A DNA stretch of 64,000 nt from Tipula vernalis (lineage: Eukaryota; Arthropoda; Insecta; Diptera; Tipulidae), in contig OY282558.1 in the NCBI GenBank assembly GCA_958295665.1, positions 28,169,045-28,233,044 of the forward strand, in the 5' to 3' direction. The position numbers and the translations under genes are program-made. Positions 4,787 to 37,214 of the stretch are shown here, piece by piece. Numbering within the stretch: position 1 is the first letter of the stretch; each line of letters starts with the position of its first letter. The notes beneath the pieces are model-generated. The model had not been told where the DNA came from. It saw only the letters and a list, made by a program, of their open reading frames with translations, and ran no database searches.

Positions 4787-5287
4787 TTTTCATACCAGGC
4801 GCCTCGCCTCGAAATATTTAGTTACCACAAATGCGAAGCTGAGACTCTTTCATACCGGTGGCGTTAGCTTTGAACATTCAGTTGCTATCAAATATTTTAT
4901 TTAGGTCTATTTTACACGTGAATAATAGCAAGAACTGAGATATTCTAAATTTGTAACGTACATATGAGCTAGATTTTTTTGAAAGTATGAAACATTTGTG
5001 CAAAAAATGTGATTTGTAGGTTATGTTGAGAAAGCACTTCGCTTTGTACTACTTTAAAATGTCACAGTCGAGTGTGGAACGCATTGCCTTGGCTTTGTAG
5101 ATAACTTCATTGCAATACATCTTGTTTTTTTAAATTATCACTTAAAAATAAATTATTTTTCAACAAATTGAATTTATTACTATAAAATTAAACGGTATCA
5201 ATCGAATAAAACTAATTTACATACTTAAAAAACGAAATAAAAAATTTTTATTCACGAAGCTCAAAGCCGAGGCGCCTGGTATGAAAA
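4787..5287. mobile_element. 501-bp non-autonomous element with 20-bp terminal inverted repeats
   Basis: The left end TTTTCATACCAGGCGCCTCG (4787-4806) is exactly complementary to the right end at 5268-5287. Subterminal sequence is partly related, and a second copy of TTTCATACCGG lies at about 4849. No ORF is present. No convincing target duplication was seen, so the exact ends and the superfamily are open. Confidence 0.6.
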
Positions 5288-8647: not shown

Positions 8648-8690
8648 TATAGAATAGCTTTTTTCTAATTTAGGACCCAATTTGTCTTTT

Positions 8691-9606
8691 AAGTAATTTC
8701 ATTAGTTTGTTACTAGTCTGACTTACTTTATATTGTACGGGTTTTAAAAGGTCACAAGAGTTCTGACAGAAATTTTTCGAGTTTGTTTTTTATTTTTAAA
8801 GACAAAAATAAAATGTTTACGAAAGCTTCTCTAAAATACTTTTTTTTCTATAGAAGAAACTTTAAATAACAATTGGTGATACAAACCATAATACCACAGA
8901 AAGAGAAAGACACAATTATGTAAAAAATTAAAATTTGAATGAACGATAGACAATAGACTCGGATAAACTTTGTTTGGTTTTTCGTACAATCCTGTTAGTT
9001 TAAACATGTCAGTCGTAAAATTAGGCTGTTATCATGGTGTTCAAGTGAAAGTTTTGGCGGCGTCATTAATGGAAGCTTGAAAACAGTATAAAACAATTGC
9101 AAATAATAAAAGTGAATCGATTGAAAATCGAATTAGTGATTAATGGCTATCAAACAGTGTACATAAATTGATTGCCTTATGTAAAAATGTGTGTGTGCTT
9201 GTGATATGCAGTGCGTAATGTAATGTTGTGTTACAGTTAGAATTTAAGGAAGTGTTGTCCATTGTCCCGTTTTAATTTAAAATTATTCATTATATATTTG
9301 CCTTGGAGTGCAAGCAAGGTTTGTATGGGACAATGGCTTAAAGACAATCACGAGAGATTAATAAGAGAGATTGCTGAAAAATAATGCTAGCTGGTAAGTC
9401 CTTCTTATCTGTGTTTCAATTATTCTGATCTGAACCCTTAAATTAGACATTGTTCACCTTTTTAAATTTGAAACCTAAAATTTAAATGTTTTATGATTAT
9501 TATTACATTCCACATAATCCTCTAATTCCTTATTCAATATTCCTAAATTAGAAAATTGATGTGATTTACTGAATTTAGAAATGTTCGTAATATAATCGTC
9601 GTTCGT
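8691..9606 (+). repeat. Tandem ~917-bp unit, copy 1
   Basis: First of three nearly identical head-to-tail units. Each has GTTTTGGCGGCGTCATTAATGG, a TATAAAA box (9087-9093 here) and, about 300 bases later, a consensus-like splice donor CTG|GTAAGT (GT at 9394). In this copy an ATG at 9384-9386 lies just upstream of the donor (ATG CTA GCT G|GT). It reads as a possible promoter with a short first exon on the plus strand. That is inference; no downstream exon is recognised. Confidence 0.8.
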
Positions 9607-10523
9607 AAGTAATTTCATTAGTTTGTTACTAGTCTGACTTACTTTATATTGTACGGGTTTTAAAAGGTCACAAGAGTTCTGACAGAAATTTGTGCGAGTT
9701 TGTTTTTTATTTTTAAAGACAAAAATAAAATGTTTACGAAAGCTTCTCTAAAATACTTTTTTTTCTATAGAAGAAACTTTAAATAACAATTGGTGATACA
9801 AACCATAGTACCACAGAAAGAGAAAGACACAATTATGTAAAAAATTAAAATTTGAATGAACGATAGAAAATAGACTCGGATAAACTTTGTTTGGTTTTTC
9901 GTACGATCCTGTTAGTTTAAACATGTCAGTCGTAAAATTAGGCTGTTATCATGGTGTTCAAGTGAAAGTTTTGGCGGCGTCATTAATGGAAGCTTGAAAA
10001 CAGTATAAAACAATTGCAAATAATAAAAGTGAATCGATTGAAAATCGAATTAGTGATTAATGGCTATCAAACAGTGTACATAAATTGATTGCCTTATGTA
10101 AAAATGTGTGTGTGCTTGTGATATGCAGTGCGTAATGTAATGTTGTGTTACAGTTAGAATTTAAGGAAGTGTTGTCCATTGTCCCGTTTTAATTTAAAAT
10201 TATTCATTATATATTTGCCTTGGAGTGCAAGCAAGGTTTGTATGGGACAATGGCTTAAAGACAATCACGAGAGATTAATAAGAGAGATTGCTGAAAAATA
10301 CTGCTAGCTGGTAAGTCCTTCTTATCTGTGTTTCAATTATTCTGATCTGAACCCTTAAATTAGACATTGTTCACCTTTTTAAATTTGAAACCTAAAATTT
10401 AAATGTTTTATGATTATTATTACATTCCACATAATCCTCTAATTCCTTATTCAATATTCCTAAATTAGAAAATTGATGTGATTTACTGAATTTAGAAATG
10501 TTCGTAATATAATCGTCGTTCGT
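9607..10523 (+). repeat. Tandem ~917-bp unit, copy 2
   Basis: Second unit, differing from copy 1 by scattered substitutions and small indels. The TATAAAA and the donor (GT at 10311) are kept. The base at 10301 makes the ATG of copy 1 into CTG, so the putative exon would lack that start. Confidence 0.88.
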
Positions 10524-11421
10524 AAGTAATTTCATTAGTTTGTTACTAGTCTGACTTACTTTATATTGTACGGGTTTTAAAAGGTCACAAGAGTTCTGAC
10601 AGAAATTTGTGCGAGTTTGTTTTTTATTTTTAAAGACAAAAATAAAATGTTTACGAAAGCTTCTCTAAAATACTTTTTTTTCTATAGAAGAAACTTTAAA
10701 TAACAATTGGTGATACAAACCATAGTACCACAGAAAGAGAAAGACACAATTATGTAAAAAATTAAAATTTGAATGAACGATAGACAATAGACTCGGATAA
10801 ACTTTGTTTGGTTTTTCGTACAATCCTGTTAGTTTAAATATGTCAGTCGTAAAATTAGGCTGTTATCATGGTGTTCAAGTGAAAGTTTTGGCGGCGTCAT
10901 TAATGGAAGCTTGAAAACAGTATAAAACAATTGCAAATAATAAAAGTGAATCGATTGAAAATCGAATTAGTGATTAATGGCTATCAAACAGTGTACATAA
11001 ATTGATTGCCTTATGTAAAAATGTGTGTGTGCTTGTGATATGCAGTGCGTAATGTAATGTTGTGTTACAGTTAGAATTTAAGGAAGTGTTGTCCATTGTC
11101 CCGTTTTAATTTAAAATTATTCATTATATATTTGCCTTAGAGTGCAAGCAAAGTTTGTATGGGACAATGGCTTAAAGACAATCACGAGAGATTAATAAGA
11201 GAGATTGCTGAAAAATACTGCTAGCTGGTAAGTCCTTCTTATCTGTGTTTCAATTATTCTGATCTGAACCCTTAAATTAGACATTGTTCACCTTTTTAAA
11301 TTTGAAACCTAAAATTTAAATGTTTTATGATTATTATTACATTCCACATAATCCTCTAATTCCTTATTCAATATTCCTAAATTAGAAAATTGATGAGATT
11401 TACTGAATTTAGAAATGTTCG
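10524..11421 (+). repeat. Tandem ~917-bp unit, copy 3
   Basis: Third unit, again with the TATAAAA and donor (GT at 11228) and with CTG in place of the ATG. It ends at GAATTTAGAAATGTTCG, where the sequence runs into unrelated DNA ahead of a LINE fragment. The high similarity of the three units implies recent tandem duplication or homogenisation. Confidence 0.88.
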
Positions 11422-11467: not shown

Positions 11468-12768
11468 CCTGATCTGACTAATTTTGATTTGTTCTGGGGG
11501 CGAGAATCGTTTCCTTCCTGTTAAAGAGTTAATTATTCTAAACATATTAGGCCCTGGTTTAATGCGCTCTACACTATTCACGAAGGTATTCCTAAGGTGA
11601 ATCCTCATGTTTTCGTTAATCAGTATTGTTAGGCAATTAATTTGTGACCTTAATCTTTGGAATTTTGAAGTGTTCGAGTTAAAAGTTTTCCTACGTTCTC
11701 TATCCAGTGCTTTTCTAAGTTGGTTCCTTTCTCTAAATAGATTTTCTAACAATGGGGGCAAATTGGCATATTTATTATAAGTTTTTGTTTTCCTTTTTTA
11801 GCAATGATCACAAACACTATTGATCTCCTTAGTGATCAACTCAATGTACTTATCAATTTCAACATTGGTAAGATTTCTTTCTCTGTCTATATGGATCTGA
11901 TCTAACTTCTGAGAAGCAATATGGTAAAAATAATCCCAGTCAGTGTTTCTATATTCCACAAAACTAACGGGTGGTTTTAACAAGAACTTTAGAGAGTCTG
12001 AGAGTTTAATATCGACTTCAATTGCCATATGATCTGAGAAGCTAACTAAGTTCCTGATTACAATGACGGCTGATGTGGTACTATGTGGATCAGTTGCGAT
12101 ATAGAGCTTCATAACCAGTAACTGAGAGCCCGTCCCGTTATATTGTCGGATGTATCCCAGTCAGTACATCTGGCATTAAAATCCCCTCCAATAATACATG
12201 AATCGTATGTTTCCCCTGTGGAATTAATCGTGTCAAGATCTCTCTTGAGTTGACTGAAATTTGTTCCAGAGGGAACATAAATTGATATTACTAATATTGA
12301 TCCTGTTTCTAAACTGATTTCTAATGCGGTTGTTTCTAAGCTATTAATATTTTTAATTTCTATTTTGAGATTTTAAAATTACATTTAATGATTATAGCAG
12401 TGCCACGAGTACCCTCTACTTTGTCTGTTCTAATTATGTTATAATTAGGAAATTGAAGTCTATTTTTAATGTTTAATAGTGTTTCCTGGATAAGCAATAT
12501 GTCGGGCTTATATTTTCTCAATAAATTGTCTAACTCGACGCGTCTCGCACAATTATACACGGAGTTACAATTTAATGAGATTATTTTTAAATTTTTTATT
12601 TCAAACATATATTGAACATAAAAGAGATGAGAGCCGACTGTTTCTCTGTTTTATCACCCAAGTTTTTATAATGTGGTACGAATTCATTTATCTTACTAAT
12701 TAAGTCCACAAAATCTAACCCAAAAAGTTCGCGACACTCTGATTTAATGAAACCAAAATTGCTTTGAT
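11468..12768 (-). pseudogene. LINE family B fragment: ORF1 tail, endonuclease and linker
   Basis: Minus-strand remnant nearly identical to 34,627-36,002. It covers the last residues of ORF1, the APE-type endonuclease start (SLNCNSVYNCARRVE and LLIQETLL, 12,608 down) and the SFSDHMAIEVD end of the endonuclease (about 12,040), then the linker with RKALDRERRK before the RT. Relative to the other copy it lacks about 79 bases near 12,063 and carries frameshifts; the RT and 3' end are missing. It ends at exactly the same 5' truncation point as the 36-kb copy and is followed by the same ATTGAGAATTAAA (12,769 on). That points to a DNA-level copy, not a separate retrotransposition. Confidence 0.88.
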
Positions 12769-12861
12769 TGAGAATTAAAATTTTTTCATTTCAAAAATCT
12801 TTATTAATATTTTTATGTAATTATGTACAGTATTGTTTTGACAATTTTTTTTTCTACAGTA

Positions 12862-12870
12862 ACCTTTAGG
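12862..12870. repeat. 9-bp target site duplication, left (ACCTTTAGG)
   Basis: ACCTTTAGG here is repeated exactly at 20,672-20,680, immediately outside the two ends of the foldback-like element. Nine-base duplications are typical of Mutator-like and foldback (FB) elements. Confidence 0.9.
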
Positions 12871-13123
12871 ACGTATGTGAAGTTAGCCCGAAAAAAGGCC
12901 TTTTCATCCCGAAAAAAAATTTGATGTGTCTTGGCTAAATTCAATTTAAAAAGCATTTCAGCACGAAAAATTATAGAAATAAAAGAAAATTACACTCCAT
13001 CCCGAAAAAAAATATTTACCTGAAACAAGATTTTTAGTCATTTTTTTCAGGGGTTCATATTTTTAAATCTGATACAAATAAAAGAATTTCAGCACGAAAA
13101 TAATAAAAAACAACTCAAAATAA
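12871..13123 (+). repeat. Outer terminal inverted repeat, left
   Basis: About 253 bases matching the complement of 20,417-20,671 with only a few differences. It contains short internal repeats of the form YCCCGAAAAAA and CAGCACGAAAA (near 12,888, 12,907, 12,961, 12,999 and 13,090), which resemble transposase-binding subrepeats of other foldback elements. The 181-bp array starts directly after it. Confidence 0.88.
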
Positions 13124-16100
13124 CATACGATGAGGATAAGGGTTTTTCCGAAACAATTTTTCATTCAATAGTTTTGGTTGAGCGATTATTAAAAATGCTC
13201 ATATGTTAACCAATGTATCTCTGTTCACAGAGGTTTGCATGTATAGCGGTAAATGGCATGTGAATGACCAGCCCTTTGAGAAAAAACACCCGTAATGGCA
13301 TTACCATACGATGAGGATAAGGGTTTCTCCGAAACAATTTTTCATTCTATAGTTTTGGTTGAGCGATTATTAAAAATGCTCATATGTTAACCAATGTATC
13401 TCTGTTCACAGAGGTTTGCATGTATAGCGGTAAATGGCATGTGAATGACCAGCCCTTTGAGAAAAAACACCCGTAATGGTATTACCATACGATGAGAATA
13501 AGGTTTTTTCCGAAACAATTTTTCATTCAATAGTTTTGGTTGAGCGATTATTAAAAATGCTCATATGTTAACCAATGTATCTCTGTTCACAGAGGTTTGC
13601 ATGTATAGCGGTAAATGGCATGTGAATGACCAGCACTTTGAGAAAAAACACCCGTAATGGCATTACCATACGATGAGGATAAGGGATATTCCATAACCAT
13701 TTTTCATTCAATAGTTTTGGTTGAGCGATTATTAAAAATGCTCATATGTTAACCAATGTATCTCTGTTCACAGAGGTTTGCATGTATAGCGGTAAATGGC
13801 ATGTGAATGACCAGCCCTTTGAGAAAAAACACCCGTAATGGCATTACCATACGATGAGGATAAGGGTTTCTCCGAAACAATTTTTCATTCTATAGTTTTG
13901 GTTGAGCGATTATTAAAAATGCTCATATGTTAACCAATGTATCTCTGTTCACAGAGGTTTGCATATATAGCGGTAAATGGCATGTGAATGACCAGCCCTT
14001 TGAGAAAAAACACCCGTAATGGCATTACCATACGATGAGGATAAGGATTTTTCCGAAACAATTTTTCATTCAATAGTTTTGGTTGAGCGATTATTAAAAA
14101 TGCTCATATGTTAACCAATGTATCTCTGTTCACAGAGGTTTGCATATATAGCGGTAAATGGCATGTGAATGACCAGCCCTTTGAGAAAAAACACCCGTAA
14201 TGGCATTACCATACGATGAGGATAAGGGTTTCTCCGAAACAATTTTTCACTCTACAGTTTTGGTTGAGCGATTATTAAAAATGCTCATATGTTAACCAAT
14301 GTATCTCTGTTCACAGAGGATTGCATATATAGCGGTAAATGGCATGTGAATGACCAGCCCTTTGAGAAAAAACACCCGTAATGGCATTACCATACGATGA
14401 GGATAAGGGTTTCTCCGAAACAATTTTTCATTCTATAGTTTCGGTTGAGCGATTATTAAAAATGCTCATATGTTAACCAATGTTTCTCTGTTCACAGAGG
14501 TTTGCATGTATAGCGGTAAATGGCATGTGAATGACCAGCCCTTTGAGAAAAAACACCCGTAATGGCATTACCATACGATGAGGATAAGGGTTTTTCCGAA
14601 ACAATTTTTCACTCTACAGTTTTGGTTGAGCGATTATTAAAAATGCTCATATGTTAACCAATGTATCTCTGTTCACAGAGGTTTGCATGTATAGCGGTAA
14701 ATGGCATGTGAATGACCAGCACTTTGAGAAAAAACACCCGTAATGGCATTACCATACGATGAGGATAAGGGATATTCCATAACCATTTTTCATTCAATAG
14801 TTTTGGTTGAGCGATTATTAAAAATGCTCATATGTTAACCAATGTATCTCTGTTCACAGAGGTTTGCATGTATAGCGGTAAATGGCATGTGAATGACCAG
14901 CCCTTTGAGAAAAAACACCCGTAATGGCATTACCATACGATGAGGATAAGGGTTTCTCCGAAACAATTTTTCATTCAATAGTTTTGGTTGAGCGATTATT
15001 AAAAATGCTCATATGTTAACCAATGTATCTCTGTTCACAGAGGTTTGCATGTATAGCGGTAAATGGCATGTGAATGACCAGCCCTTTGAGAAAAAACACC
15101 CGTAATGGCATTACCATACGATGAGGATAAGGGATATTCCATAACCATTTTTCATTCAATAGTTTTGGTTGAGCGATTATTAAAAATGCTCATATGTTAA
15201 CCAATGTATCTCTGTTCACAGAGGTTTGCATGTATAGCGGTAAATGGCATGTGAATGACCAGCACTTTGAGAAAAAACACCCGTAATGGCATTACCATAC
15301 GATGAGGATAAGGGATATTCCATAACCATTTTTCATTCAATAGTTTTGGTTGAGCGATTATTAAAAATGCTCATATGTTAACCAATGTATCTCTGTTCAC
15401 AGAGGTTTGCATGTATAGCGGTAAATGGCATGTGAATGACCAGCACTTTGAGAAAAAACACCCGTAATGGCATTACCATACGATGAGGATAAGGGATATT
15501 CCATAACCATTTTTCATTCAATAGTTTTGGTTGAGCGATTATTAAAAATGCTCATATGTTAACCAATGTATCTCTGTTCACAGAGGTTTGCATGTATAGC
15601 GGTAAATGGCATGTGAATGACCAGCCCTTTGAGAAAAAACACCCGTAATGGCATTACCATACGATGAGGATAAGGGATATTCCATAACCATTTTGCATTC
15701 AATAGTTTTGGTTGAGCGATTATTAAAAATGCTCATATGTTAACCAATGTATCTCTGTTCACAGAGGTTTGCATATATAGCGGTAAATGGCATGTGAATG
15801 ACCAGCCCTTTGAGAAAAAACACCCGTAATGGCATTACCATACGATGAAGATAAGGGTTTTTCCGAAACAATTTTTCATTCAATAGTTTTGGTTGAGCGA
15901 TTATTAAAAATGCTCATATGTTAACCAATGTATCTCTGTTCACAGAGGTTTGCATGTATAGCGGTAAATGGCATGTGAATGACCAGCCCTTTGAGAAAAA
16001 ACACCCGTAATGGCATTACCATACGATGAGGATAAGGGATATTCCATAACCATTTTGCATTCAATAGTTTTGGTTGAGCGATTATTAAAAATGCTCATAT

Positions 16101-16400
16101 GTTAACCAATGTATCTCTGTTCACAGAGGTTTGCATGTATAGCGGTAAATGGCATGTGAATGACCAGCCCTTTGAGAAAAAACACCCGTAATGGCATTAC
16201 CATACGATGAGGATAAGGGTTTTTCCGAAACAATTTTTCATTCTATAGTTTTGGTTGAGCGATTATTAAAAATGCTCATAATGTTAACCAATGTATCTCT
16301 GTTCACAGAGGTTTGTAGATATAGCGGTAAATAGCTAGTGAATGACTAGCCCTTTGAGAAAAAACACCTATAGTGTCATTACCATACGATGAGGATAAGG
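13124..16400 (+). repeat. Left array: about 18 units of a 181-bp tandem repeat
   Basis: The marker CATACGATGAGGATAAG recurs at 13,124, 13,305, 13,486, 13,667 and on to 16,384, an exact 181-base period with 18 intervals. Two unit types alternate irregularly, one with TCCGAAACAATTTTTC and one with ATTCCATAACCATTTT. Each unit holds the palindromes CTCTGTTCACAGAG (6-bp arms), GTAATGGCATTAC (13 bp) and CATATG. The last unit (16,200-16,383) is the most diverged. No ORF runs through the array. Confidence 0.95.
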
Positions 16401-16865
16401 GGTTTTATGGGTTATCGGGTTTATTCAGTAGAATATTTGTGGTAAGTCTCATTTTAGCGCAACACTATAAACCAAATAGCATAAATTCAGAGGTTGGCTC
16501 ATTTAGAGACTATATAGTTCAAGATCGTACATTGTGAAATTTAAATCACTCAGTGCCCTTTTGATTCGAGTCATATGGCTCTTGCAACAAATTTTTGAAA
16601 ATTAACAAATTGACGAATTTCGCATGGACACATGTGTACTCTTCGTTCTCTAGCCTTGGCATAATCATTCTTGCAGGATAGCCCGTTTATAGGGATCCTC
16701 GTTCATACAACCATTCATATGGAGCGCCCAAGTCAATGGGATCCATTTCACTTTCGACAGAGAGCCCGTTTATAGGGATCTTCTTTCATTTCCAAGAGAA
16801 ACGAAACATCGAGTCAGACAGTTGGTTGACGGTTTTGTCGCCCCTTTGGGTCATTTAATTAATAA
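16401..16865. other. Left core of the foldback-like element
   Basis: Unique sequence between the left array and the core ORF stop. It contains a short direct repeat, GCCCGTTTATAGGGATC (at 16,681 and 16,766), each followed by a similar CTTCATTTC-like segment. No convincing ORF. It may hold the 3' end of the core gene's transcript. Confidence 0.5.
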
Positions 16866-17513
16866 TTAATAATTATTAATTAAAAACGTCCTTATTCCAC
16901 ACAAAATTCGTCGGTTTATTAATTTTAAAAAAAATTTTGCAAGGGTCCTACGGCTCAGATCTGAATCTTTAAAATGGTCACAAATATTGGTTGTTAGTTT
17001 ACCATTTGTATTAAAATTCGAGGAGTGCTGAATAACTGCTAAATTATTCGTTTCACCAGACAAAATTTCTATTCTTTCCTCAGTCAAATTTTCTACTAAT
17101 ACTAATGGATTCGATTCAAATTCATCTAGTATATTTTGATTAGTTAATGGCGAAAGATCGGTAAAATTATTTTCCACAAGATTTACATGATTGTCTTGGA
17201 TTTCTGTATTAAGTGTTGTACACATTACATTACAATTAAATTCTATCACGGGTGATAGATCTTTATTTTGGTTGCAAGTGGTATCACTTCTTAAATAATT
17301 GCGCCATATATTATACAAACGAGTACGATTCAAAAAACTATTATTTATACAAAGGTATTGGCATATTTGAGTCATATCATGACACTTTGAAGTAGTGAAC
17401 TTAACACTTGCAAACGACAATTTTTCAATCGCATATTTCACAGCGCCTACGGTAATTGCGCTTCTTTTCTTTTTATAATTAGATCTGATTTTTTTTTTAT
17501 TCATTTTTCCCAT
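16866..17513 (-). CDS. Core ORF of the foldback-like element, 215 aa, function unknown
   Basis: The only sizeable ORF in the element. The N-terminus is strongly basic (MGKMNKKKIRSNYKKKRSAI), like a nuclear localisation or DNA-binding tail. Next comes a segment with two spaced Cys (SKCHDMTQICQYLC) and the motif FLNRTRLYNIWRNYL, then an acidic, Asn-rich middle, and a C-terminus ending IRTFLINNY at a run of TAA triplets. I do not recognise a catalytic domain. It is far shorter than a MULE/NOF transposase, so it could be an N-terminal exon, a truncated transposase or an accessory protein. Its position between the arms suggests an element-encoded role. The start is the first Met; a second Met lies three codons on. 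Short repeats upstream (17,535-17,700) may be regulatory. Confidence 0.55.
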   Translation of the reverse strand: MGKMNKKKIRSNYKKKRSAITVGAVKYAIEKLSFASVKFTTSKCHDMTQICQYLCINNSFLNRTRLYNIWRNYLRSDTTCNQNKDLSPVIEFNCNVMCTTLNTEIQDNHVNLVENNFTDLSPLTNQNILDEFESNPLVLVENLTEERIEILSGETNNLAVIQHSSNFNTNGKLTTNICDHFKDSDLSRRTLAKFFLKLINRRILCGIRTFLINNY

Positions 17514-17529
17514 TTTAAAGTAGAATTAT

Positions 17530-17700
17530 CCTTAAGAAAGCCGAGGTCAAATATTTTTTAATGTTTCAAACAATATCAAAATGTTAGCGTTAATTAGAAT
17601 GTCCTAAAAGAAAGCCGAGGTCAAAAATACAATATTCAACAGTAAAAATTAAAATCAGGTCACAAAAACAGAATGTCCGGGAGAAAGGCGAGGTCGATTT
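17530..17700 (-). promoter_or_regulatory. Three spaced repeats upstream of the core ORF
   Basis: AAGCCGAGGTCAAA-like motifs occur at about 17,535, 17,609 and 17,683 (the last as AAGGCGAGGTCGAT), spaced about 74 bases, each preceded by an AAGAAA or GAGAAA run. They lie just upstream of the 215-codon minus-strand ORF. They could be promoter or transposase-binding repeats; the function is inferred only from position. Confidence 0.4.
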
Positions 17701-17889
17701 AGTTTTTAAAAAAACTTTTTTAGTATATGAAATAATCAAAAAAACACGAGGAAATCACAAAAACAAAACGAAACGCACACGGCAAAATCTGAATTGGTAT
17801 TAAAATAGAAATGAGAAAAAAATTCCTTTTATACTCGTGCCGAAAATTTTTATTTTTAGGTTTAACAAATCGTTTTTTGTCGATTTATC

Positions 17890-20145
17890 GGTCATGCGAG
17901 CATTTTTAATAATCGCTCAACAAAAACTATAGAGTGAAAAATTGTTTCGGAAAAACCCTTATCCTCATCGTATGGTAATGCCATTACGGGTGTTTTTTCT
18001 CAAAGGGCTGGTCATTCACATGCCATTTACCGCTATACATGCAAACCTCTGTGAACAGAGATACATTGGTTAACATATGAGCATTTTTAATAATCGCTCA
18101 ACCAAAACTATTGAATGAAAAATGGTTATGGAATATCCCTTATCCTCATCGTATGGTAATGCCATTACGGGTGTTTTTTCTCAAAGGGCTGGTCATTCAC
18201 ATGCCATTTACCGCTATACATGCAAACCTCTGTGAACAGAGATACATTGGTTAACATATGAGCATTTTTAATAATCGCTCAACCAAAACTATTGAATGCA
18301 AAATGGTTATGGAATATCCCTTATCCTCATCGTATGGTAATGCCATTACGGGTGTTTTTTCTCAAAGGGCTGGTCATTCACATGCCATTTACCGCTATAC
18401 ATGCAAACCTCTGTGAACAGAGATACATTGGTTAACATATGAGCATTTTTAATAATCGCTCAACCAAAACTATTGAATGAAAAATTGTTTCGGAAAAACC
18501 CTTATCTTCATCGTATGGTAATGCCATTACGGGTGTTTTTTCTCAAAGGGCTGGTCATTCACATGCCATTTACCGCTATATATGCAAACCTCTGTGAACA
18601 GAGATACATTGGTTAACATATGAGCATTTTTAATAATCGCTCAACCAAAACTATTGAATGCAAAATGGTTATGGAATATCCCTTATCCTCATCGTATGGT
18701 AATGCCATTACGGGTGTTTTTTCTCAAAGGGCTGGTCATTCACATGCCATTTACCGCTATACATGCAAACCTCTGTGAACAGAGATACATTGGTTAACAT
18801 ATGAGCATTTTTAATAATCGCTCAACCAAAACTATTGAATGAAAAATTGTTTCGGAAAAATCCTTATCCTCATCGTATGGTAATGCCATTACGGGTGTTT
18901 TTTCTCAAAGGGCTGGTCATTCACATGCCATTTACCGCTATATATGCAAACCTCTGTGAACAGAGATACATTGGTTAACATATGAGCATTTTTAATAATC
19001 GCTCAACCAAAACTATAGAATGAAAAATTGTTTCGGAGAAACCCTTATCCTCATCGTATGGTAACGCCATTACGGGTGTTTTTTCTCAAAGGGCTGGTCA
19101 TTCACATGCCAATTACCGCTATATATGCAAACCTCTGTGAACAGAGATACATTGGTTAACATATGAGCATTTTTAATAATCGCTCAACCAAAACTGTAGA
19201 GTGAAAAATTGTTTCGGAAGAACCCTTATCCTCATCGTATGGTAATGCCATTACGGGTGTTTTTTCTCAAAGGGCTGGTCATTCACATGCCATTTACCGC
19301 TATACATGCAAACCTCTGTGAACAGAGAAACATTGGTTAACATATGAGCATTTTTAATAATCGCTCAACCGAAACTATAGAATGAAAAATTGTTTCGGAG
19401 AAACCCTTATCCTCATCGTATGGTAATGCCATTACGGGTGTTTTTTCTCAAAGGGCTGGTCATTCACATGCCATTTACCGCTATATATGCAAACCTCTGT
19501 GAACAGAGATACATTGGTTAACATATGAGCATTTTTAATAATCGCTCAACCAAAACTATAGAATGAAAAATTGTTTCGGAAAAATCCTTATCCTCATCGT
19601 ATGGTAATGCCATTACGGATGTTTTTTCTCAAAGGGCTGGTCATTCACATGCCATTTACCGCTATATATGCAAACCTCTGTGAACAGAGATACATTGGTT
19701 AACATATGAGCATTTTTAATAATCGCTCAACCAAAACTATAGAATGAAAAATTGTTTCGGAGAAACCCTTATCCTCATCGTATGGTAATGCCATTACGGG
19801 TGTTTTTTCTCAAAGGGCTGGTCATTCACATGCCATTTACCGCTATATATGCAAACCTCTGTGAACAGAGATACATTGGTTAACATATGAGCATTTTTAA
19901 TAATCGCTCAACCAAAACTATTGAATGAAAAATTGTTTCGGAAAAACCCTTATCTTCATCGTATGGTAATGCCATTACGGGTGTTTTTTCTCAAAGGGCT
20001 GGTCATTCACATGCCATTTACCGCTATATATGCAAACCTCTGTGAACAGAGATACATTGGTTAACATATGAGCATTTTTAATAATCGCTCAACCAAAACT
20101 ATTGAATGAAAAATGGTTATGGAATATCCCTTATTACCATCATAT
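17890..20145 (-). repeat. Right array: about 12 units of the 181-bp repeat, inverted
   Basis: The complement of the left unit, with the marker CCTCATCGTATGG at 17,967 and every 181 bases to about 20,143, plus a partial unit at the inner edge (from about 17,895). The two unit types of the left array appear here too, including the rare variants TTCATCGTATGG (18,508 and 19,956) and AGAGAAACATTGG (about 19,325). Six units fewer than the left arm. Confidence 0.95.
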
Positions 20146-20416
20146 GGTAATGGCGGTCTTGTTGCTTATATTTGTAGGCCCATCTAAGCAAATGCCTTAT
20201 TCCGATATCTTTCGACCTTCGTGAATAAACATATGGTATATGGTATATCGTGGTAGTTAATCGTATACATTTCTTTAAAAAAATGTATTTTGTTTTCCAG
20301 TGTGTTTTGTGATATAAGTATAACATGTTATGTATAATTTATAAATGAAAAACACTACTAACAATGAAAAAAATATTTGTTTTCAGATATAAATTTAATA
20401 TTTTTGGGGTTCAATT
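20146..20416. other. Right-arm spacer absent from the left arm
   Basis: About 270 bases lie between the right array and the outer inverted repeat, while on the left the array abuts the outer repeat directly. The 69-codon minus-strand ORF here (20,117-20,326) has no recognisable features. Small palindromes built on CATATG are present. Either the left arm lost this part or the right arm gained it. Confidence 0.6.
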
Positions 20417-20671
20417 GTTATTTTGAGTTGTTTTTTATTATTTTCGTGCTGAAATTCTTTTATTTGTATCAGATTTAAAAATATGAACCCCTGAAAAAAA
20501 ATGACTAAAAATCTTGTTTCAGGTAAATATTTTTTTTCGGGATGGAGTGTAATTTTCTTTTATTTCTATAATTTTTCGTGCTGAAATGCTTTTTATATTG
20601 AATTTAGCCAAGACACATCAAATTTTTTTTCGGGATGAAAAGGCCTTTTTTCGGGCTAACTTCACATACGT
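20417..20671 (-). repeat. Outer terminal inverted repeat, right
   Basis: Complement of 12,871-13,123, ending CTAACTTCACATACGT directly before the second ACCTTTAGG (20,672-20,680). The few differences from the left end include a T/A change near 20,600 and a one-base change in a T run. Confidence 0.88.
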
Positions 20672-20767
20672 ACCTTTAGGTTTTATATAGATTTGTGTTT
20701 ATTGTAATAGTTTTATTTTGAATGCATTGCGGCAACTTGGCAGTGAGGATTGTTTTCCCCCGAATAT

Positions 20768-20804
<37 letters not shown>

Positions 20805-20929
20805 GTGTTATCTTAAAACTATTATTTACAATATTTACAACTTACGAACTATCTTAATACTAACTACCCTAATCTTAGATTACAATGCTAAGCGCAATAA
20901 TTTGTATAAACATGAACATGTCGAGCTGT

Positions 20930-23486
20930 TCAGTATTGGTGAGCGATGTTGTTTAGGAAGTCGCATGGCAAGGAAAGCAGTTTGTTTAGCCGATTGGACA
21001 ACATTGTAGCCGAGAAGTTACCGATATAGTTTAATTGGGCCATGTCATGGAGGCAGACAGTCGAGGTTTGTCTGTAATCCGGCGGGTGTGGCCAGCTATC
21101 AAAAACATGACGTAGTGCTTTATTTTGTATGCGTTGTAGCGTGGTTTTCTGCGTTGATGTGATTAAGTCATACCAGGCTGGTGATGCATAGGTGATGATG
21201 GGCCTGATGTATAGCTTGTATACCAGTAACTTATTTTTGTAGTCCAGCACACTATTACGGTTAAATAACGGGTACAGGATTCTGAAGGCATTCGCTGATT
21301 GTTTGCTAATTGCTTTAATGTGGCTGTTGAAATTGAGGGTACTGGACAGATTGACGCCCAGATACTTTGCCTCCCTTGACACCGTGATGTTTTCGCCATT
21401 AATGGAGACGTCCACTGCTTTGTTGAATTTATTTTTATAATTTTGGTGGGGATAGAAATAGACCAGCTGGGTTTTTGTGGCTTTGATCCTAACATTCCAG
21501 GTGTCGAAGTAGACCACCAGCGTATTAAGGTATGCTTGAATTCTGGAAGAGCATTGGTACTCACTGTAACTGCTGGAATATACTGTTGTGTCGTCGGCGT
21601 ATGCTTGGAACTTGGTGTAAGGCTGCCTAGGGACAGGTATGTCATACATAAAAAATATGTAAAGTAATGGTCCTAGCACCGATCCCTGGGGCACTCCTGC
21701 TGATATTTGTTTCGTTTCCGAGTTATGCCTATTATTCACGCAGACAAAGAACTCCCTTTCTCCTAGGTATGAGTTAAGTAGTGCGATGAGCGCTGGATTG
21801 GCTCCACATTTAATTAATTTGTATATGAGGCCCTTGTGCCATACCGAATCGAATGCTTTCTGGATGTCCAAGAATGCTACCGCCGTGATCTTGCGACGTG
21901 ACTTGGCTCGTTTGAGGTCATTCAAGAGACGCATCGTTGCGTCCGTTGTCGACCTATGGCAAACAAAGCCAAACTGCTCCACCGGGATCAAGTGCTGAAC
22001 CGCCGACCAGAGCCTACGATAGATCACTCTTTCCACCAGTTTACTGAGTCCGCACAACAGACTTATGGGCCTCGTGTTTTCCGGGGTGCATGGTTTGCCG
22101 GTTTTGGGAATTGCTACCACCTTAGAGAGCTTCCAACTTTTGGGGAAATAGGCATAAACCAGAATAGCGTTTGTGATTTGTACCAGCTGTACGATAGCCG
22201 AGATTGGTAGGTTTTTGATTGCCCCGTTAGAGATTCCATCTATCCCCGGCGATTTTTTATTCTTTAACTGTCGTACAATGCTTGACATCTCTGCGGCATT
22301 TGTCGCTTCAGGATATACCGTAAATGGCAATCTTTGATTTGTAATAGATCCGTCCGCCTGGTCTATTATTCCCTGATCCTCGGTACGTGCCCTCTCACTG
22401 AATATCGTTTGGTAGTAGTCTGCTACCTTATTGGCAATTATTGCAGGATCAATGACCGGGCCGTCAGGGCCGTCTAGCACCGTGTTTAGTTTTGTTGTTG
22501 GTCTCAGAGTTCTTATGTATTTAAATATATTTGACTTGTCTGGGTTTACGCTTCTGAGTTTCTCGTTTATTCTTTCTTGGTGAAACTGGCTGATTTTTTC
22601 GTGCACAAGCCTCGTAGTTCGATTTATTAGTTTCGTGGTGTATAATGCCGGCCAATATCGGTGTTTGTTTCTATAATAGTTCCTTAGTTTGATCAGTTGG
22701 ACTATATGAGCAGGTAGCGGTCTGGTCCTATTCTCCATCAGAGGCACAAATTTATCCGTGGCTATTCCCATGATTGTTGTGAGTTTATGAACTCTTCGGT
22801 CGATTTCATCCGTTGAATCGATTGGCTGTTCGTTGAGCGGGGCAACTTTTTGATGAATATAATGCCTATAGCAAGGCCAGTCAGCGTTTTTGTAGTCCAG
22901 TATTCTTACACCGTCTGGACTTTGGAACAGGTCGAACCGATCCAAGGTGTGAAAGACTACTGGCATATGGTCAGAGCAGAACTCATTCAGCACCGTGACG
23001 TCTTCATCAATGTCTACTTCCTTTGCCAAGACCAGAGAGTGTCCGGCCGCTGCTGTTGATTGTCAAGCAACCCCATGAATGATGGTGAGCGTTAAAGTCG
23101 CCACAGACGACGACGCGTGGGTGAGTGCTAATCAAACTGTGTAGGTCTTCGGTTACAACCTTCCAAAAATAGGCAGAGACTAGTACGAAAGATTCGTCTC
23201 CTTCCCCCACAATTACAGTGGTAGCAACTAAACTGTCCCGTATATAGGCCCTCGGCGATGAATGTTTTATGTTGTCTCTGACTAGGATCGCCGTACCTCC
23301 GGATCTCTTAATTTTGGAATTTGTTCTGTGTATGATATAATTTTCGAAAAAAAGCGAGTGTCGGTCGTTTAGTCTGGTCTCGTTTAGGCACACTATGCTT
23401 GGTTTATGTTGATTGAGGAATACCGATAGCTCCTGGCGACGGGCATTACTGATTAGGCTATTGCAATTTAAGGTGACAATCTTCAT
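20930..23486 (-). pseudogene. LINE A ORF2: APE endonuclease and reverse transcriptase, one frameshift
   Basis: ORF2 would nick target DNA and prime reverse transcription of its RNA. The endonuclease (23,486 down to 23,007) shows VTLNCNSL, LNETRLND, VVVCGDFNAHH and, after the break, FCSDHMPVV. Between SSGRTL and LAKEVDIDED the usual part with the ID motif is missing, so about 35-40 codons appear deleted with a change of frame near 23,040. The RT (23,029-20,930, 699 codons open) shows KNKKSPGIDGISN, FLDIQKAFDSVWHKG, AGVPQGSVLGPLL and the catalytic FQAYADDTTVY. The C-terminal part has KALRHVFDSWPHPPDYR. The start ATG overlaps the ORF1 stop as ATGA. The RT looks intact, the endonuclease does not. 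Confidence 0.92.
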
Positions 23487-24667
23487 TGCAGGAATTGTAC
23501 TACGAAATTGAGGTACGCAGCCTTTTGGCTGGCTACGTCCTGGATATTATTTAGTTGTATTAAAAATTTGGATACGTGGCTTGTGAGCGAGGTAAAGCTC
23601 ATGCCGAAGAGTTCATGTGACTTTGCAAAGAACTCTCCAAGAATACTACTCGCTCCAGATGGCTCCGAAAAATGTGGTACGTTAAGAGCTGAAGGCCCCT
23701 GGCTCGGTTTGGGTTTGAGAAAATCGGCATAAGAGACACCTTTTTTGACATAGTTAGATTCAAAAGTTTTGGGCTGAGCATTGTTTACATTGTTTGTATT
23801 TACTAGATTAGGTTTAGTTAGCTTACCAAGTCTTTTTTGCCTCTCTGGACATTCAAAGAAGCTGGCCACGTGTCCTCCGCCACAGTTGCCGCATTTCACT
23901 GGGACTGATTTATCTTCATTTCTTGGACAGGCACCTGGTAGGTGTGATCCGGCGCACTTCACACATTTGTATTGCATGCTGCACCCAGCAGCAACATGCC
24001 CGAATCCTTGGCATTTACGGCACTGTGCTATGGGGATTTTTCTTTTGTTTTCCCAACTGATTTTGTAGCCGCAGCAACCGTTGGTCATATTTATGTCTGC
24101 ATATTTGGTATCATGCGCAAAGGACACCGTAAAGCAGGGTAATTTAATTTGCTTCTCCGAGCCGTCGTTCTCCTTGATCATTTTGTTTATGGGGTACACG
24201 TTTTGCACCGCTAGCCCTTTTTTTTCTAATTCAGCTTTGATTTCATCCGTGTCTGTATCCTGATGGATACCCTTCATCAACATCACTTTTGGTCTTTGGT
24301 TTTTTTGGATGTATGTGAAGAAATTCATGTTTATTTTTTTGAGTTCCGCTACCAGTAGTTGGTGGTTTTCAAGATTGGTTGCGTAAATTATCGTGCTGCT
24401 AGAGTACACCTTGAGCAGGGTGCCGGTAAATTTTCCTGTAATTTCTCTGATTAAGTTAATTTTTGACGAGTCGAACCCTTTTAAAATTATTGGGGGTGGT
24501 TTAGCGACTCTGGTTGCGGCTTTCCTTCCAGTGTCCATATTGACCTTATCAGCAGGTACGTCAAACTTTAATCTGTTAAATTGTCCGCCAATTCGACTGC
24601 TTGGGAAGACTACGTTATCCGTTTCCGAATCGGTGTATTCAAAATCAGAGCTGTTGTCCAGCATCAT
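23483..24667 (-). CDS. LINE A ORF1 (gag-like nucleic-acid-binding protein), 394 aa
   Basis: Gag-like protein of a Jockey-type LINE, expected to coat the element RNA and aid target-primed reverse transcription. The middle (about residues 145-215) has the conserved RNA-binding fold of this group, with MLMKGIHQDTDTDEIKAELE and KLPCFTVSFA. Three zinc knuckles follow: CRKCQGFGHVAAGC, CVKCAGSHLPGAC, and CGNCGGGHVASFFEC. The C-terminal 60 residues (GEFFAKSHELFGMSF) correspond to the ORF1 tail of LINE B at 35.8-36.0 kb. The frame is fully open. The stop TGA overlaps the ORF2 ATG by four bases. A second Met directly follows the first; which one is used is not clear. Confidence 0.9.
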   Translation of the reverse strand: MMLDNSSDFEYTDSETDNVVFPSSRIGGQFNRLKFDVPADKVNMDTGRKAATRVAKPPPIILKGFDSSKINLIREITGKFTGTLLKVYSSSTIIYATNLENHQLLVAELKKINMNFFTYIQKNQRPKVMLMKGIHQDTDTDEIKAELEKKGLAVQNVYPINKMIKENDGSEKQIKLPCFTVSFAHDTKYADINMTNGCCGYKISWENKRKIPIAQCRKCQGFGHVAAGCSMQYKCVKCAGSHLPGACPRNEDKSVPVKCGNCGGGHVASFFECPERQKRLGKLTKPNLVNTNNVNNAQPKTFESNYVKKGVSYADFLKPKPSQGPSALNVPHFSEPSGASSILGEFFAKSHELFGMSFTSLTSHVSKFLIQLNNIQDVASQKAAYLNFVVQFLQ

Positions 24668-24719
24668 TTTGACGGCATGTGAGACATCATTTGAGAGTTA
24701 AAAGTTTTTGGTCGACTTT

Positions 24720-25421
24720 ATATACAATTTTCCCATCGAAAAATCAATGTATTGTTACGCCACGCCCATCATCAAATAATTAAAATAAAATCATTTCTGT
24801 TGCTTTCCTTTTATAACTTATCGTCAAATAATCATAATTATTTATTCTTTCTTTCTAACATTTCTTTATTTTTATATAAACAAATACAAAATTAGAATTA
24901 CAGAATACAGGTTACAAAACGGTTTATGCTGTATTCTGTATTACTTCACATTCCTCTCGATATTTTCTGGGGTAAATATTCCAATTTTCACATTTTTTTT
25001 TCTCCGTGGTTTTTAAACCAATTTTAAATTAGATCCGATATAATCAGTGATTTTTTAATTATTCTCATAAAATTACAATTTTGCGTTACATATACATTCA
25101 TTCCTCATAACTAGTTTAATTAATTTTCTATAATCACGAACGTTCATATGTGGGCATTTTTATATAGTGAAAAGAAATGAATTAAAAACATTTTAAGTGA
25201 AAACGATTATTTTATTTTAAGTCGTTTCATATACATACAAATGTATTTTGATTATAAAAGTTGTAATAAACGAATTACAAATATTTGTTTTGTATTTGAA
25301 AGTGTACATAATTAACATTATTCGCACTCCAAAATTATTTATCTACAATTGGTGTTATGTATCTGAAATGTGGAATGATTTATCCAAATGTTCTCTTCCT
25401 ATTTTAGAAAAAAAAGTGACA
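24720..25421. other. Duplicated AT-rich flank, no gene
   Basis: Shared with 36,033-36,715. It contains the string TTTATATACAATTTTCCCATCG and a GTTACGCCACGCCC segment. The 61-codon ORF at 25,248 has no family features and is not preserved in the other copy. Confidence 0.55.
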
Positions 25422-25423
25422 TA

Positions 25424-25649
25424 CACTATCTAACAAAATTATTCACACTCCAGCCTTCTGCAAACAATTTCAAGCAAACATATTAGAACAATGTCAAGTA
25501 AAAAATCCGAAAATATATATTTATTTCATTGTAATAAAATAATGAAATAAATATATATTTTCGGATTTTTTACTTGACATTGTTCAAATATTTGTTTTAT
25601 TGAAATTGTATGCAAGGGGCTGGGGTGTGAATAATTTTGTTAGATAGTG
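25424..25649. mobile_element. 226-bp Tc1/mariner-like MITE (copy 1 segment)
   Basis: The ends CACTATCTAACAAAATTATT and complement are flanked by TA (25,422-25,423 and 25,650-25,651). The inner halves also pair (GTCAAGTAAAAAATCCGAAA and complement), so nearly the whole element can fold into a hairpin. Non-coding. Also at 36,718-36,944 within the duplication and, diverged and truncated, at 46,247-46,463. Confidence 0.85.
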
Positions 25650-25683
25650 TAATTATTTCGGATTTACATTCATTCATATTTAA

Positions 25684-25914
25684 CCTTCGAGCGGGCGCGC
25701 GCCGTAAAATTTACGGCGAACTTATTAATTTTCTAATAAAATAGTTTTGCAAATAAAATATTTTTTAAGCTTAAATACTATTTTTCTTTAATTATTAATA
25801 ATTACGAAACTCTATGTTATCATAAAATAGTGAATATTTGCTATAAACTGTATAACGTAAAATTTACAGGGCGCGCTCGCTCGTGTTAAAATAAAATGCG
25901 CGCCCGCTCGAAGG
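25684..25914. mobile_element. 231-bp GC-ended MITE, possibly piggyBac-like
   Basis: The ends CCTTCGAGCGGGCGCGCG and complement stand out as GC-rich in AT-rich DNA. TTAA lies directly before the left end (25,680-25,683) and TTAC directly after the right end, which fits a TTAA target duplication with one decayed side, as for piggyBac elements. Non-coding. The duplicate at 36,979-37,209 has a more mutated right flank. Confidence 0.6.
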
Positions 25915-25919
25915 TTACG

Positions 25920-28060
25920 TGCTTCAGCTGCACTCTTCATTCATATTTAAGTGCTCAATTACATAAAAACATTATATATTATTACTTTAGATGTTTTTAG
26001 TTTCATAATTAAGTGTACAATTATAATTAAGTGTACTTTGGCGAGTTAACTTAGATAAATGTATATATCAACATCAAAATTAATTAAATCTATTATTGGA
26101 AATTATACATAATTTAATTGAGAATAACATGAACACTTTCTATGTATAATCCACTACACTTAATAGGTGATTCGCTTGTACAATATCACCTGTGTATTTT
26201 CGAATTTAATTTTGTAAATTAGTCGTAATATTTAATTAAATTCCAATTACAAAAAACATAACTAAACATGACTTTATAAAACTGCTATTAAACCTATCAT
26301 ATACTTAGATATAAGCCAAATTCAAACGTGTAAATATTTTTATTTATACAATTATTAAATGCAACGAAAACTCCGAAAAGGTAAAAGTATTTTATAGAAT
26401 GCTCCGTATTTTTGGCACCATAAAATCCATGTTAAGTTATTTAAAAGTTATAGATTAATATTTTGTTGCAACTACTAATTAATACTTTGTTGCATTTTGT
26501 TTTTTTATTAAACTCGAAATACGGAAAGCAATTAAAAATTCTTACCGTAAATAAATGTAAACCATTAAAATTTATTTTAGACTAGTGTATCCATCTGTCT
26601 TTCAACACATTAAACGGTTGTAATGGAATCCAAATAAAATTAGTACAGTATAACAGTTTCAATGGTTTGAAACCAAACTAACATCTTTTTCTTGTCATTT
26701 CGATTTCACACGATATTACTATCTCACTCCAATCAACCACATGTTTTATTTTTTTTGGTTAGGTTTTTTTTTCATTCTAAAAAAAAACAAAAAATACAAA
26801 TTTTTTATAATTTTCCCGTCAGTGGTCTCGACGCGTTTGGTCACGTTTTTAAAAAAATACGAGAAAAACAAGAGTTAAAATTGTGGCGCGATTTAATACT
26901 AAACAGTTAAAGTTAGAGCAAAAAATATGAAATAAATACAAAAAATACCGTAAGGATAATAAAAACAATTCAAGTGGATTAAAAAATGTATTACGGTTCT
27001 TTTCTTTATTACAAAATTAGAGGAAATAAATAGAAAACAAAAAATATGGATTTACTTATGTGTGCTTAACAAATAAATAAATTGTTTTGTTTTTTCATTG
27101 TGTTGACATTATTATTTAAAAGTACCGTTCTAAAGTTGAATTACAATAATTGAAAAGTATTATCAAACGTGTAATTAAAAAAAAAAAATTGAACAATAAA
27201 AAAGTGAATTCAACAATATTATTTTAATTGCTTGGTGAATTAAAAGTAAGTGAAATTATTTTTATTGAATAAATTATTTAATTGGATGATTTAAATTCGG
27301 ATCGAGTGAAAAGGATTAAATTTCGTTTGCTTCCTTTCCTCTGTATCTTTTTCGTACATTTGAATTTTGAAAAGGATTTTTCAAATATTTTTTGATTAAA
27401 TTATTACTTTCGTCTTTTAAAAATATTGAAGAAATTTTTGTAACTAACTAAACCTAAAATATTCAAGGAGCTCATTTCAAGAAAAGGTTCTAAACTTCAC
27501 TTCAAATTCTTATTAAATTTAAAGAGATAATCTAACCCCAATGTGTGGGCAGAGTGTCATATAGTTAGATTCCTATTTCTAAGGATTTGGCATAATAATT
27601 ATCTCGGTTGGTTATCTTATCTGTGATCCTTTGAGATATTGTATTTTGGGAATAAAGCTACGTATACTTACCACCCCTTAATTCTCCAATTGCCTATTTT
27701 GTTGTTAATTTGAGCCAAATATTTTTAATTTTTAATATTTTAAATATCTGTTAAACTCTGAATAAAAACGATTAGAAAAATTTTCTTGGAAATTATTAAA
27801 AAATTTTAAACAACCACTTTTTGAAATAATCAAGTTGAATTACAACACACATAATTCGTTTCCAAAATTGTATAAGGAGGAACGATTTTAACATAGTTCA
27901 ATAAGGCCTTGCAGGGCCGCGCCTAGCACATTGACCGCCCGTGTCTATATGAAAAATTAAGCTTTACCTCAAAAAAAAAAAAAAAAACTATATAAATTCA
28001 CATATTTTTTTTATTTATTTAATTAATTAACATAAAATATTTAATTATATTCGAACAAAT
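25920..28060. other. Duplicated AT-rich interval without recognisable gene
   Basis: No ORF over 100 codons and no domain. The 72-codon ORF at 26,692 shows no family features. The part from about 26,030 to 26,350 is also present, diverged, at 45,540-45,895. This could be ancestral non-coding sequence or the inside of an older unrecognised repeat. Confidence 0.55.
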
Positions 28061-28070
28061 ATTTGTTCTG

Positions 28071-28436
28071 GGGGCCTATTATGAAATTTTTCGATTTCGG
28101 ATTTTTACGATATCGAAAAAATTCGTCCTATTATGAAACAAAAAAGGAAATTCGTATCGGATTTTTTCGAACACACATGGCAAAATTCGACTGCTATTTA
28201 GTTGGCGGATTTTGTAAAATTTATGGTATTTTGTGTTTTTGTGTAAAATACGTTTTTGTAAATGATTTATTCAATTTTAAATTAATTAAATATTATTTTT
28301 AATATTGTAATATTTATATTAATAAATAATATTACAAATTCGATTTTCCAAGTTTCATAATAGGGTAAATCCGCGGCGTATCGAATTTTTTCGATATCGT
28401 AAAAATCCGAAATCGAAACATTTCATAATAGGCCCC
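28071..28436. mobile_element. 366-bp MITE with CTG target duplication, copy 1 only
   Basis: The ends GGGGCCTATTATGAAA and complement flank a largely palindromic element. CTG stands on both sides (28,068-28,070 and 28,437-28,439). In the duplicate segment the matching place (39,367-39,369) has a single CTG and no insert, a true empty site. A 3-bp CWG or TWA duplication and GGG-type ends fit PIF/Harbinger elements. The 79-codon ORF inside is a by-product of the palindrome. Confidence 0.85.
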
Positions 28437-28475
28437 CTGAAGTTATTTGTCTCTATTAATTTTTAATTTTTAATG

Positions 28476-29121
28476 TGAGGTCAGCTTTTTATAGACAAAT
28501 TTTAATTAAAATTAAAACTAAAATAATATAATTTAGTTTTTTAAAACTTTTTATTTATTTCCTGATATTTCGACCGTTTGGTCATAATCATAGGAGTTAA
28601 AACTGTAACAATTAAGATAGAGAATTACAATTAGGATCAATAGTGTTCTTTTTTAAAATTCTTTAAAGAAAAATGGAAATATAATTCTAATTCTTCTTCT
28701 ATTCTCTTCTTTAATCACATATTTTTGTTTTTATTTACGACGATCAGTTTTTTATGAAAATAAAGAATTTCTTTAAACGAAATTAAAGGTAAAAAATTCC
28801 TTTAAAAAACGTTTGTAAGTAAGAATAATATAAATACATATGTGATTAAAAGTAAGGAAGTTTTATTTTTATAATATTAGGTATGTAACCTATAATAGTA
28901 AATTATATTTCCATTTTTCTTTAAAGAATTTTTAAAAAAAATTTCTAAAGCTCAATAGTGTCCTAATTGTAATTCTCTATCTTAATTGTTACAGTTTTAA
29001 CTCCTATGATTATGACCAAACGGTCGAAATATCAGGAAATAAATAAAAAAATTTAAAAAACTAAATTATATTATTTTAGTTTTAATTTTAATTAAAATTT
29101 GTCTATAAAAAGCTGACCTCA
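28476..29121. mobile_element. 646-bp element with very long terminal inverted repeats (segment 1)
   Basis: The arms begin TGAGGTCAGCTTTTTATAGA and pair over more than 200 bases around a short AT-rich centre. Each arm carries CCTGATATTTCGACCGTTTG or its complement, a small hairpin (GACC-AAAC-GGTC) followed by GAAA, a motif seen near Penelope-like element ends. No target duplication or ORF was identified. The duplicate lies at 39,406-40,051. Confidence 0.7.
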
Positions 29122-29189
29122 ATTTAAAAATTGAAAAAAAAATATTTAATACAACATAAATGAGTACTTATATTAAATAAATTGCACTT

Positions 29190-37209: not shown

Positions 37210-37214
37210 CTCCG

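Follow-up and report, generated by a model that had tools for sequence, protein, structure and literature searches.

A foldback-type element with satellite-like arms

The DNA analysed here (the window) is a 64,000-nucleotide stretch of the crane fly Tipula vernalis (contig OY282558.1), and it holds, at 12871-20671, an element on the 7.8-kb scale lying between exact 9-bp direct repeats. A search of the whole window found this repeat, ACCTTTAGG, at 12862 and 20672 only. The outer inverted repeats of the element (253-254 bp) are 99.2% identical left versus right, and inside them Tandem Repeats Finder detected two oppositely oriented arrays of a 181-bp unit, one of 18.1 copies at 13124-16406 and the other of 12.5 copies at 17898-20152. 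The inverted ends, the exact flanking repeat and the opposed arrays had all been named in an earlier sequence-only reading of this DNA, and all are present. The longest inverted repeat measures 2260 nt at 98% identity, and at the right end about 265 bp of extra sequence (20153-20417), which has no counterpart on the left, separates the array from the outer repeat.

Between the arms, the minus strand of the spacer carries an open frame of 215 codons; the longest open stretch, 219 codons, exceeds that of all 1000 dinucleotide shuffles (maximum 164). The spacer equals nucleotides 1-935 plus 4490-5072 of the core of E08, a full-size copy elsewhere in the assembly, with one extra base at the join and 936-4489 deleted, and the window copy is a deletion derivative. 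The element is very probably a non-autonomous, internally deleted copy from a recently mobile family of cut-and-paste DNA transposons. Its parts are listed in Table 1.

Table 1. Parts of the foldback-type element and its target duplication, in window coordinates
Feature	Position	Strand	Evidence
Left 9-bp target site duplication, ACCTTTAGG	12862..12870	+	Repeat match and target overlap
Left outer terminal inverted repeat, short type, 253 bp	12871..13123	+	99.2% to 20418-20671
Left arm, 18.1 x 181-bp unit	13124..16406	+	Tandem-repeat call
Partial unit closing left arm, 24 bp, also part of family core	16383..16406
Retained 3' part of family core (= core 4490-5072 of copy E08)	16383..16961	-	98.6% identity
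215-aa open reading frame: 184 N-terminal residues of transposase-like protein + 31 frameshifted	16866..17513	-
Extra base at core junction	16962
5' part of family core (= core 1-935 of E08), includes gene start	16963..17897	-	99.7% identity
Right arm, 12.5 x 181-bp unit, opposite orientation	17898..20152	-
Inner part of long-type (~525 bp) outer repeat, missing at left end	20153..20417	-
Right outer terminal inverted repeat	20418..20671	-	Match to left end
Right 9-bp target site duplication	20672..20680	+

Copies of the family in the host assembly

The host assembly searched comprises 1,270,886,964 bases in 340 contigs, three of which are 464, 412 and 371 Mb long. An exact 20-bp piece of the element's end occurs 66 times in it and a 25-bp piece of the 181-bp unit 1004 times, and the reversed-pattern control gave 0 for each, so the arms are no local oddity. 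By our own count from the list, the 66 ends form 25 inverted pairs within 35 kb and 16 single ends. We read 15 of the 25 pairs as copies, the window's included; these are the end pairs among the best 40 of 379 candidates scored, a set biased toward the best-preserved ends. The sequence-only reading had staked its interpretation, a DNA transposon of foldback type whose arms resemble a satellite and which duplicates 9 bp of its target, on further copies in the host assembly, and these bear it out: inverted arrays of opposite orientation were seen in 15/15 copies, and each copy is flanked by an exact 9-bp duplication, every one different.

Uninterrupted target sites point the same way. When the window flanks were rejoined without the element (180 bp), alignment across the junction was found at 38 of the 40 scored places (41 candidates) with 81-100% identity, which places the flanks within a dispersed repeat. 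The two rows left over come from the window itself: they are its two flank halves, query 1-91 and 83-180, and they overlap by 9 bp (query 83-91).

The copies range from 2.0 to 22.2 kb in length, with arms of about 2 to about 69 units, and their G+C content is 46% against 33% in the flanks. Because the left and right terminal 250 bp within one copy are 98.4-100% identical, we take the copies as young. The outer repeat exists in a short form of about 253 bp, found at 11 of the 30 ends, and a long form of about 525 bp, found at 17; the remaining two ends, both of copy E14, matched neither search string. Eight copies have a short end and an assigned gene strand; in six of them the short end lies on the 3' side of the gene, in E08 only it lies on the 5' side and in E15 on both sides, a placement that suggests exchange between the arms.

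The seven full-size copies (E02, E04, E06, E07, E08, E10 and E13) have in common a core of about 5.0-5.7 kb, which holds one long gene, whole or interrupted. The gene is partly present in five further copies (the window's, E05, E11, E14 and E15), deletions different from the window's occur in E12, E14 and E15, and E01 and E09 are nearly coreless. Two other observations concern the cores. That of E05 (L037-L038), whose own gene is without its 5' part, contains a 1204-codon open reading frame that is retrotransposon-like by eye. In full-size copies (e.g. L033), core positions ~3960-4250, downstream of the gene, hold a TA-rich microsatellite of variable length, within a segment that also matches itself inverted.

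It is very improbable that the arms are an assembly artefact, collapsed or expanded by mis-assembly. Although copy E11 has 2500 N in its core, 14 of the 15 copies are free of N, every copy has its own target duplication and its own flanks, and the units carry unit-specific variants; array lengths may still be off.

The 181-bp arms

Unit matches of at least 170 nt were kept (664), and 601 were compared after 63 had been dropped for a length other than 181 or a start off the first base. Per 181 bp, the mean number of differences is 4.8 within an arm, 5.2 between the arms of one copy and 5.2 between copies; given such similar values, unit variants are common to the whole family. Variation is concentrated at one side of the unit: in the window, 14 of 17 informative sites fall in the first 53 columns (Fisher p 2.6e-6; innermost left unit L18 excluded), and the 601 units show the same tendency toward the first columns. 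Blocks of up to 14 units recur exactly inside one arm (E09; among the 601 units), from which we infer that arms expand, whether by unequal exchange, by slippage or by gap repair. A number of individual units are identical in the left and right arms of the window copy, the longest exact run common to both being left units L15-L17, which equal right units R9-R11; for unit order between the two arms, p is 0.03 for the same order and 0.008 for the reverse.

Of the 1004 genome-wide occurrences of the unit 25-mer, 607 lie inside the 15 copies, which hold 30 of the 66 ends. The places listed fall in two of the copies read and leave out most of the other 397 occurrences, some of which may or may not form a free satellite. 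Pieces of the unit had no match in viral_contigs or genome_contigs. As a source of the unit, in the manner of Tetris (discussed below), we considered the outer repeat and rejected it: similarity between the two is not above that of shuffles, with a score of 17 on the same strand (176/200 shuffles as high) and 16 on the other (194/200).

A transposase-like protein encoded in the core

The full protein, in copy E02, has 1142 amino acids (L033:1807-5232), and in both E02 and E07 the frame is open over 1-1142 with zero stops. The 215-aa frame of the window corresponds to residues 1-184 of this protein followed by 31 frameshifted residues. A genome search with the 1142-aa protein gave at least 43 matches (best 40 of 2838 candidates scored), of which 13, by our own count, are full length without a stop: two in the window's family (99-100% identity) and 11 in sister families (54-60%). 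Partial sister genes reach 66% identity. Examples of sister genes lie at C1:254980859, C3:185040052 and C2:135782222 of the host assembly (G000).

We aligned five proteins, that of the window's family and those of L058, L059, L060 and L061, which amount to four lineages as L060 and L061 are near-identical. Invariant in 5/5 are LDATG (D425), IDFSF (D503), C-x2-H (C550, H553) and SNSHVEN (E721), and the five also have conserved cysteine pairs of some finger type other than PHD. A C(2)H between the second aspartate and the glutamate is a signature of the aspartate-aspartate-glutamate (DDE) transposases of Mutator-like elements (MULEs). By eye, we read the invariant motifs as a putative DDE site with the C(2)H of MULE-like transposases, and the 1142-aa protein is the putative transposase of the family. 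The family also has the long terminal inverted repeats of the MULE kind and a target duplication within the 8-11 bp of that kind (range from PMC6446971). Between L058 and L059, the ratio of nonsynonymous to synonymous substitution rates (dN/dS, NG86) stands at 0.14 for the DDE part, 0.11 for the USP-like part and 0.75 for the 81-190 linker; several of the more distant pairs have reached saturation.

Several points weigh against calling this protein a transposase. No Pfam transposase matched the whole proteins, the DDE pieces or the sister proteins, and this includes MULE (PF10551). The AlphaFold model of the 1142-aa protein is unusable (mean pLDDT 31.8), supporting neither this fold nor that of the C-terminal domain described below. 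Mobility of the family is read from sequence, not from observed transposition. Between L060 and L061, dN/dS is 0.53 from few changes, which says little because the two differ too little. The MULE-type label of the sequence-only reading stands in part: the DDE and C(2)H motifs, by eye, and the 9-bp duplication make it likely, whereas the Pfam scans gave no MULE match.

Other searches were also negative. Neither Pfam (E <= 1) nor NCBIfam, PDB or the protein collection yielded a homologue of the 215-aa frame, and its first 81 residues gave in Pfam Egg_lysin only (E 0.15, below cut-off); these negatives say little on the whole protein, no part of which evolves faster than this piece. For the full protein, no relative was confirmed in viral_contigs or genome_contigs (2-6 peptide patterns per scan).

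The gene might instead be a passenger in a foldback of FB/NOF or Tetris type, in which a host satellite was captured or amplified to form the arms and which an unrelated transposase mobilises. Tetris is built alike and has no known transposase (PMC4079207), and arm length varies freely among our copies. We consider this improbable, because the gene sits in the core of seven full-size copies with the same ends and partly in five others, 13 of the 43 genome matches span the full length with no stop (11 belong to sister families), the DDE-like motifs are invariant in all five proteins, and just 15 copies hold the majority of the unit 25-mers counted above.

A C-terminal isopeptidase-like domain

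The C-terminal pieces of the five proteins (last 278 residues) were scanned separately. Peptidase_C98, the family of the SUMO isopeptidase USPL1, matched the pieces of L060 and L061 with 38.9 and 37.9 bits (cut-off 27), and UCH matched that of the window's family with 24.8 bits (cut-off 23.9), so that three of the five pieces are above cut-off. A profile of the five pieces ranked the solved USPL1 structure first in PDB, at E 0.034 and 0.051, values weak alone. The piece of the window's family gave ten weak PDB matches (E 0.38-1), of which nine are ubiquitin proteases, including USP14, USP8 and TssM. Invariant in 5/5 are NTC (C903), GHF (H1098) and YDD (D1113-D1114); by their motifs, C903, H1098 and D1113/D1114 are candidate catalytic residues. 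The C-terminal domain looks like a putative USPL1-type isopeptidase of the C98/UCH kind.

Against this stand the weaker and the missing matches. C98 is below cut-off in L059 (21.5 bits) and L058 (18.8 bits); for the window's family it is absent from the 278-aa piece and reaches 25.4 bits, also below cut-off, with a 262-aa piece; and UCH is below cut-off in L060 and L061. Full-length proteins gave zero UCH or C98 matches in Pfam, a whole-protein profile gave zero matches in PDB, and the L060 piece alone hit in PDB an unrelated enzyme only (E 0.75). Moreover, the aligned part of C98 starts at profile position 126-127, and the half with the catalytic cysteine is missing from the alignment.

A search of the host genome with C98 matched at least 14 places, two of them inside sister genes, a set that is incomplete because L060 and L061 are not among the places listed; the same search gave a match in 0 of 14 control genomes. 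Among the matches listed, the longest, over profile 39-261, lies at C1:431971219-431971881 of the host assembly (G000). It may be the USPL1 gene of the host itself, and hence a candidate source of the domain. No report of a USPL1/C98 domain in a transposase was found among the top-ranked results of a mostly open-access literature search.

Relationship to known systems

The sequence-only reading had argued for a distinct family from the 181-bp length of the subunit. This argument fails because Tetris and Rehavkus-1_TC have long subunits too, and with Galileo subfamily F (~210 bp) as a further case we no longer take the length of the subunit as evidence of novelty. In FB/NOF of Drosophila melanogaster, tandem subunits tens of bp long build the foldback arms and the duplication is of about 9 bp; the arms and the duplication are alike here, whereas FB subunits are short. 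FB/NOF is also mentioned in PMC4079207.

Judged by description, the closest architecture is that of Rehavkus. Rehavkus-1_TC of Tribolium castaneum (Repbase) is 9.5 kb long and has 164-bp satellite units in its inverted ends, mostly five and eight monomers (PMC10218199), and the Rehavkus group is listed with a 9-bp duplication, terminal inverted repeats of 26-400 bp, a PHD finger and a minisatellite near the 3' repeat (PMC6446971). Like these, the window's family consists of kb-scale elements with a 9-bp duplication and satellite units in inverted termini. That it belongs to this MULE-related group, and is just another Rehavkus, is in our judgement evenly poised. Unlike Rehavkus-1_TC, its unit measures 181 rather than 164 bp and its arms reach about 69 units. 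The Pfam scans of the five proteins showed no PHD finger, although the table lists one for Rehavkus; the excerpts of PMC10218199 and PMC6446971 contain no mention of the USPL1-like domain found here; and the long-type outer repeat of about 525 bp exceeds the listed range. Since the PHD finger is absent from the scans and the two are compared by description, not protein sequence, we call the family Rehavkus-like and not Rehavkus; membership of Rehavkus or of MULEs is unproven.

Tetris of Drosophila virilis has AT-rich subunits of about 220 bp and 8-10 bp duplications, and only three structurally complete copies and no autonomous one were found; expansion by unequal exchange was proposed for it (PMC4079207). 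The order of outer domain, inverted unit arrays and middle domain is the same in our family, which, unlike Tetris, has copies of autonomous size with the gene; this likeness too is one of description, not sequence. Tm1 of root-knot nematodes combines Foldback-like composite ends and mostly 9-bp duplications with a rare transposase copy and many derivatives (PMC3169594). It differs from the window's family in its 13-15 bp subunits and its Phantom-type MULE with a FLYWCH finger (PMC3169594). Galileo subfamily F has long ends with internal tandem repeats of about 210 bp, up to three, but Galileo belongs to the P superfamily and makes a 7-bp duplication (PMC3573991).

Proteases on mobile-element proteins have precedents: OTU or Ulp1 in Ginger1 and Ulp1 in MULEs (PMC2836005, PMC2528002, PMC13317346), a Trichomonas vaginalis protein joining transposase_11 to peptidase C19 (mentioned in PMC2836005), and VTD/OTU in Helitrons (PMC9741609). 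The deubiquitinase or SUMO protease is thus Ulp1, OTU, VTD or C19 there, whereas the matches here are to USPL1/C98 and UCH. The architecture of the window's family is already known, and what is less ordinary is that, behind satellite arms, a transposase-like protein carries an isopeptidase-like domain.

Surrounding DNA

The dispersed repeat in the flanks is probably the 3' part of a Jockey-like long interspersed nuclear element (LINE) inserted at about 12783-24690; we infer this span because the copy of a duplicated region at 34626-42138 has no LINE. The duplicated segment, 11473-12786 plus 24691-31159, matches 34626-42138 in pieces that are 96-98% identical, and the second duplicate contains neither the LINE nor the foldback. 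At both ends of the LINE lies a near-identical repeat of about 11 bp, GAGAATTAAAA / GAGAGTTAAAA. As the second duplicate is without the LINE insertion, the order of events would be duplication, LINE, foldback, provided that the insert was not lost from the second copy. The LINE (20930-24697) has a reverse transcriptase match (PF00078, 1.7e-38) and, by eye, an endonuclease-like and a zinc-knuckle-like open reading frame; its endonuclease-reverse transcriptase reading is broken across two frames near 23007-23062. A T33 run lies at 20770-20802.

Diverged tandem repeats with a unit of about 0.9-1 kb lie at 30517-32162 and 41451-45450, in both duplicates, and a 260-bp tandem pair at 44542-45060. 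Three successive direct repeats of about 0.9 kb with about 99% identity cover 8690-11421, and a separate direct repeat pair, also of about 0.9 kb (98.6%), lies at 1-902 and 1295-2199. At 49842-54243 are the remains of a Gypsy-like retroelement with pol-like open reading frames by eye; one frame there is near the Gypsy/Baculo_F envelope families at 26.9 bits, below the cut-off of 27.5.

Proposed mechanism and implications

In the model that we propose, the 1142-aa protein would bind the outer repeats of about 250-525 bp, cut them through a DDE active site and integrate with a stagger of 9 bases, and it would move the window copy and other derivatives in trans. The 181-bp arms would change length inside the element through block duplication and loss (unequal exchange, slippage, gap repair), so that the transposon would act as a portable satellite array. 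The arms may also provide further binding sites, an argument made for Galileo and Tetris, though the similarity between unit and outer repeat is here not above chance. The USPL1-like domain may strip SUMO or ubiquitin off repair proteins or off the transposase and its partners. Such an isopeptidase could shield the transposase against modification or influence repair, in line with the proposal for Ulp1 and OTU in Ginger.

More broadly, and only tentatively, a DDE lineage outside the curated MULE models may drive satellite-armed foldbacks and carry its own USPL1-type SUMO isopeptidase, coupling transposition to SUMO control of repair or silencing while spreading and expanding a satellite as arms. 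If this is true, the DDE/USPL1 lineage would be the kind of autonomous partner that is missing for Tetris. Here a single assembly brings together the arms and a putative transposase, along with deletion derivatives, target sites that are uninterrupted, and sister genes, and thereby how transposons breed satellites, and what a SUMO or ubiquitin protease does in transposition, would become directly testable.

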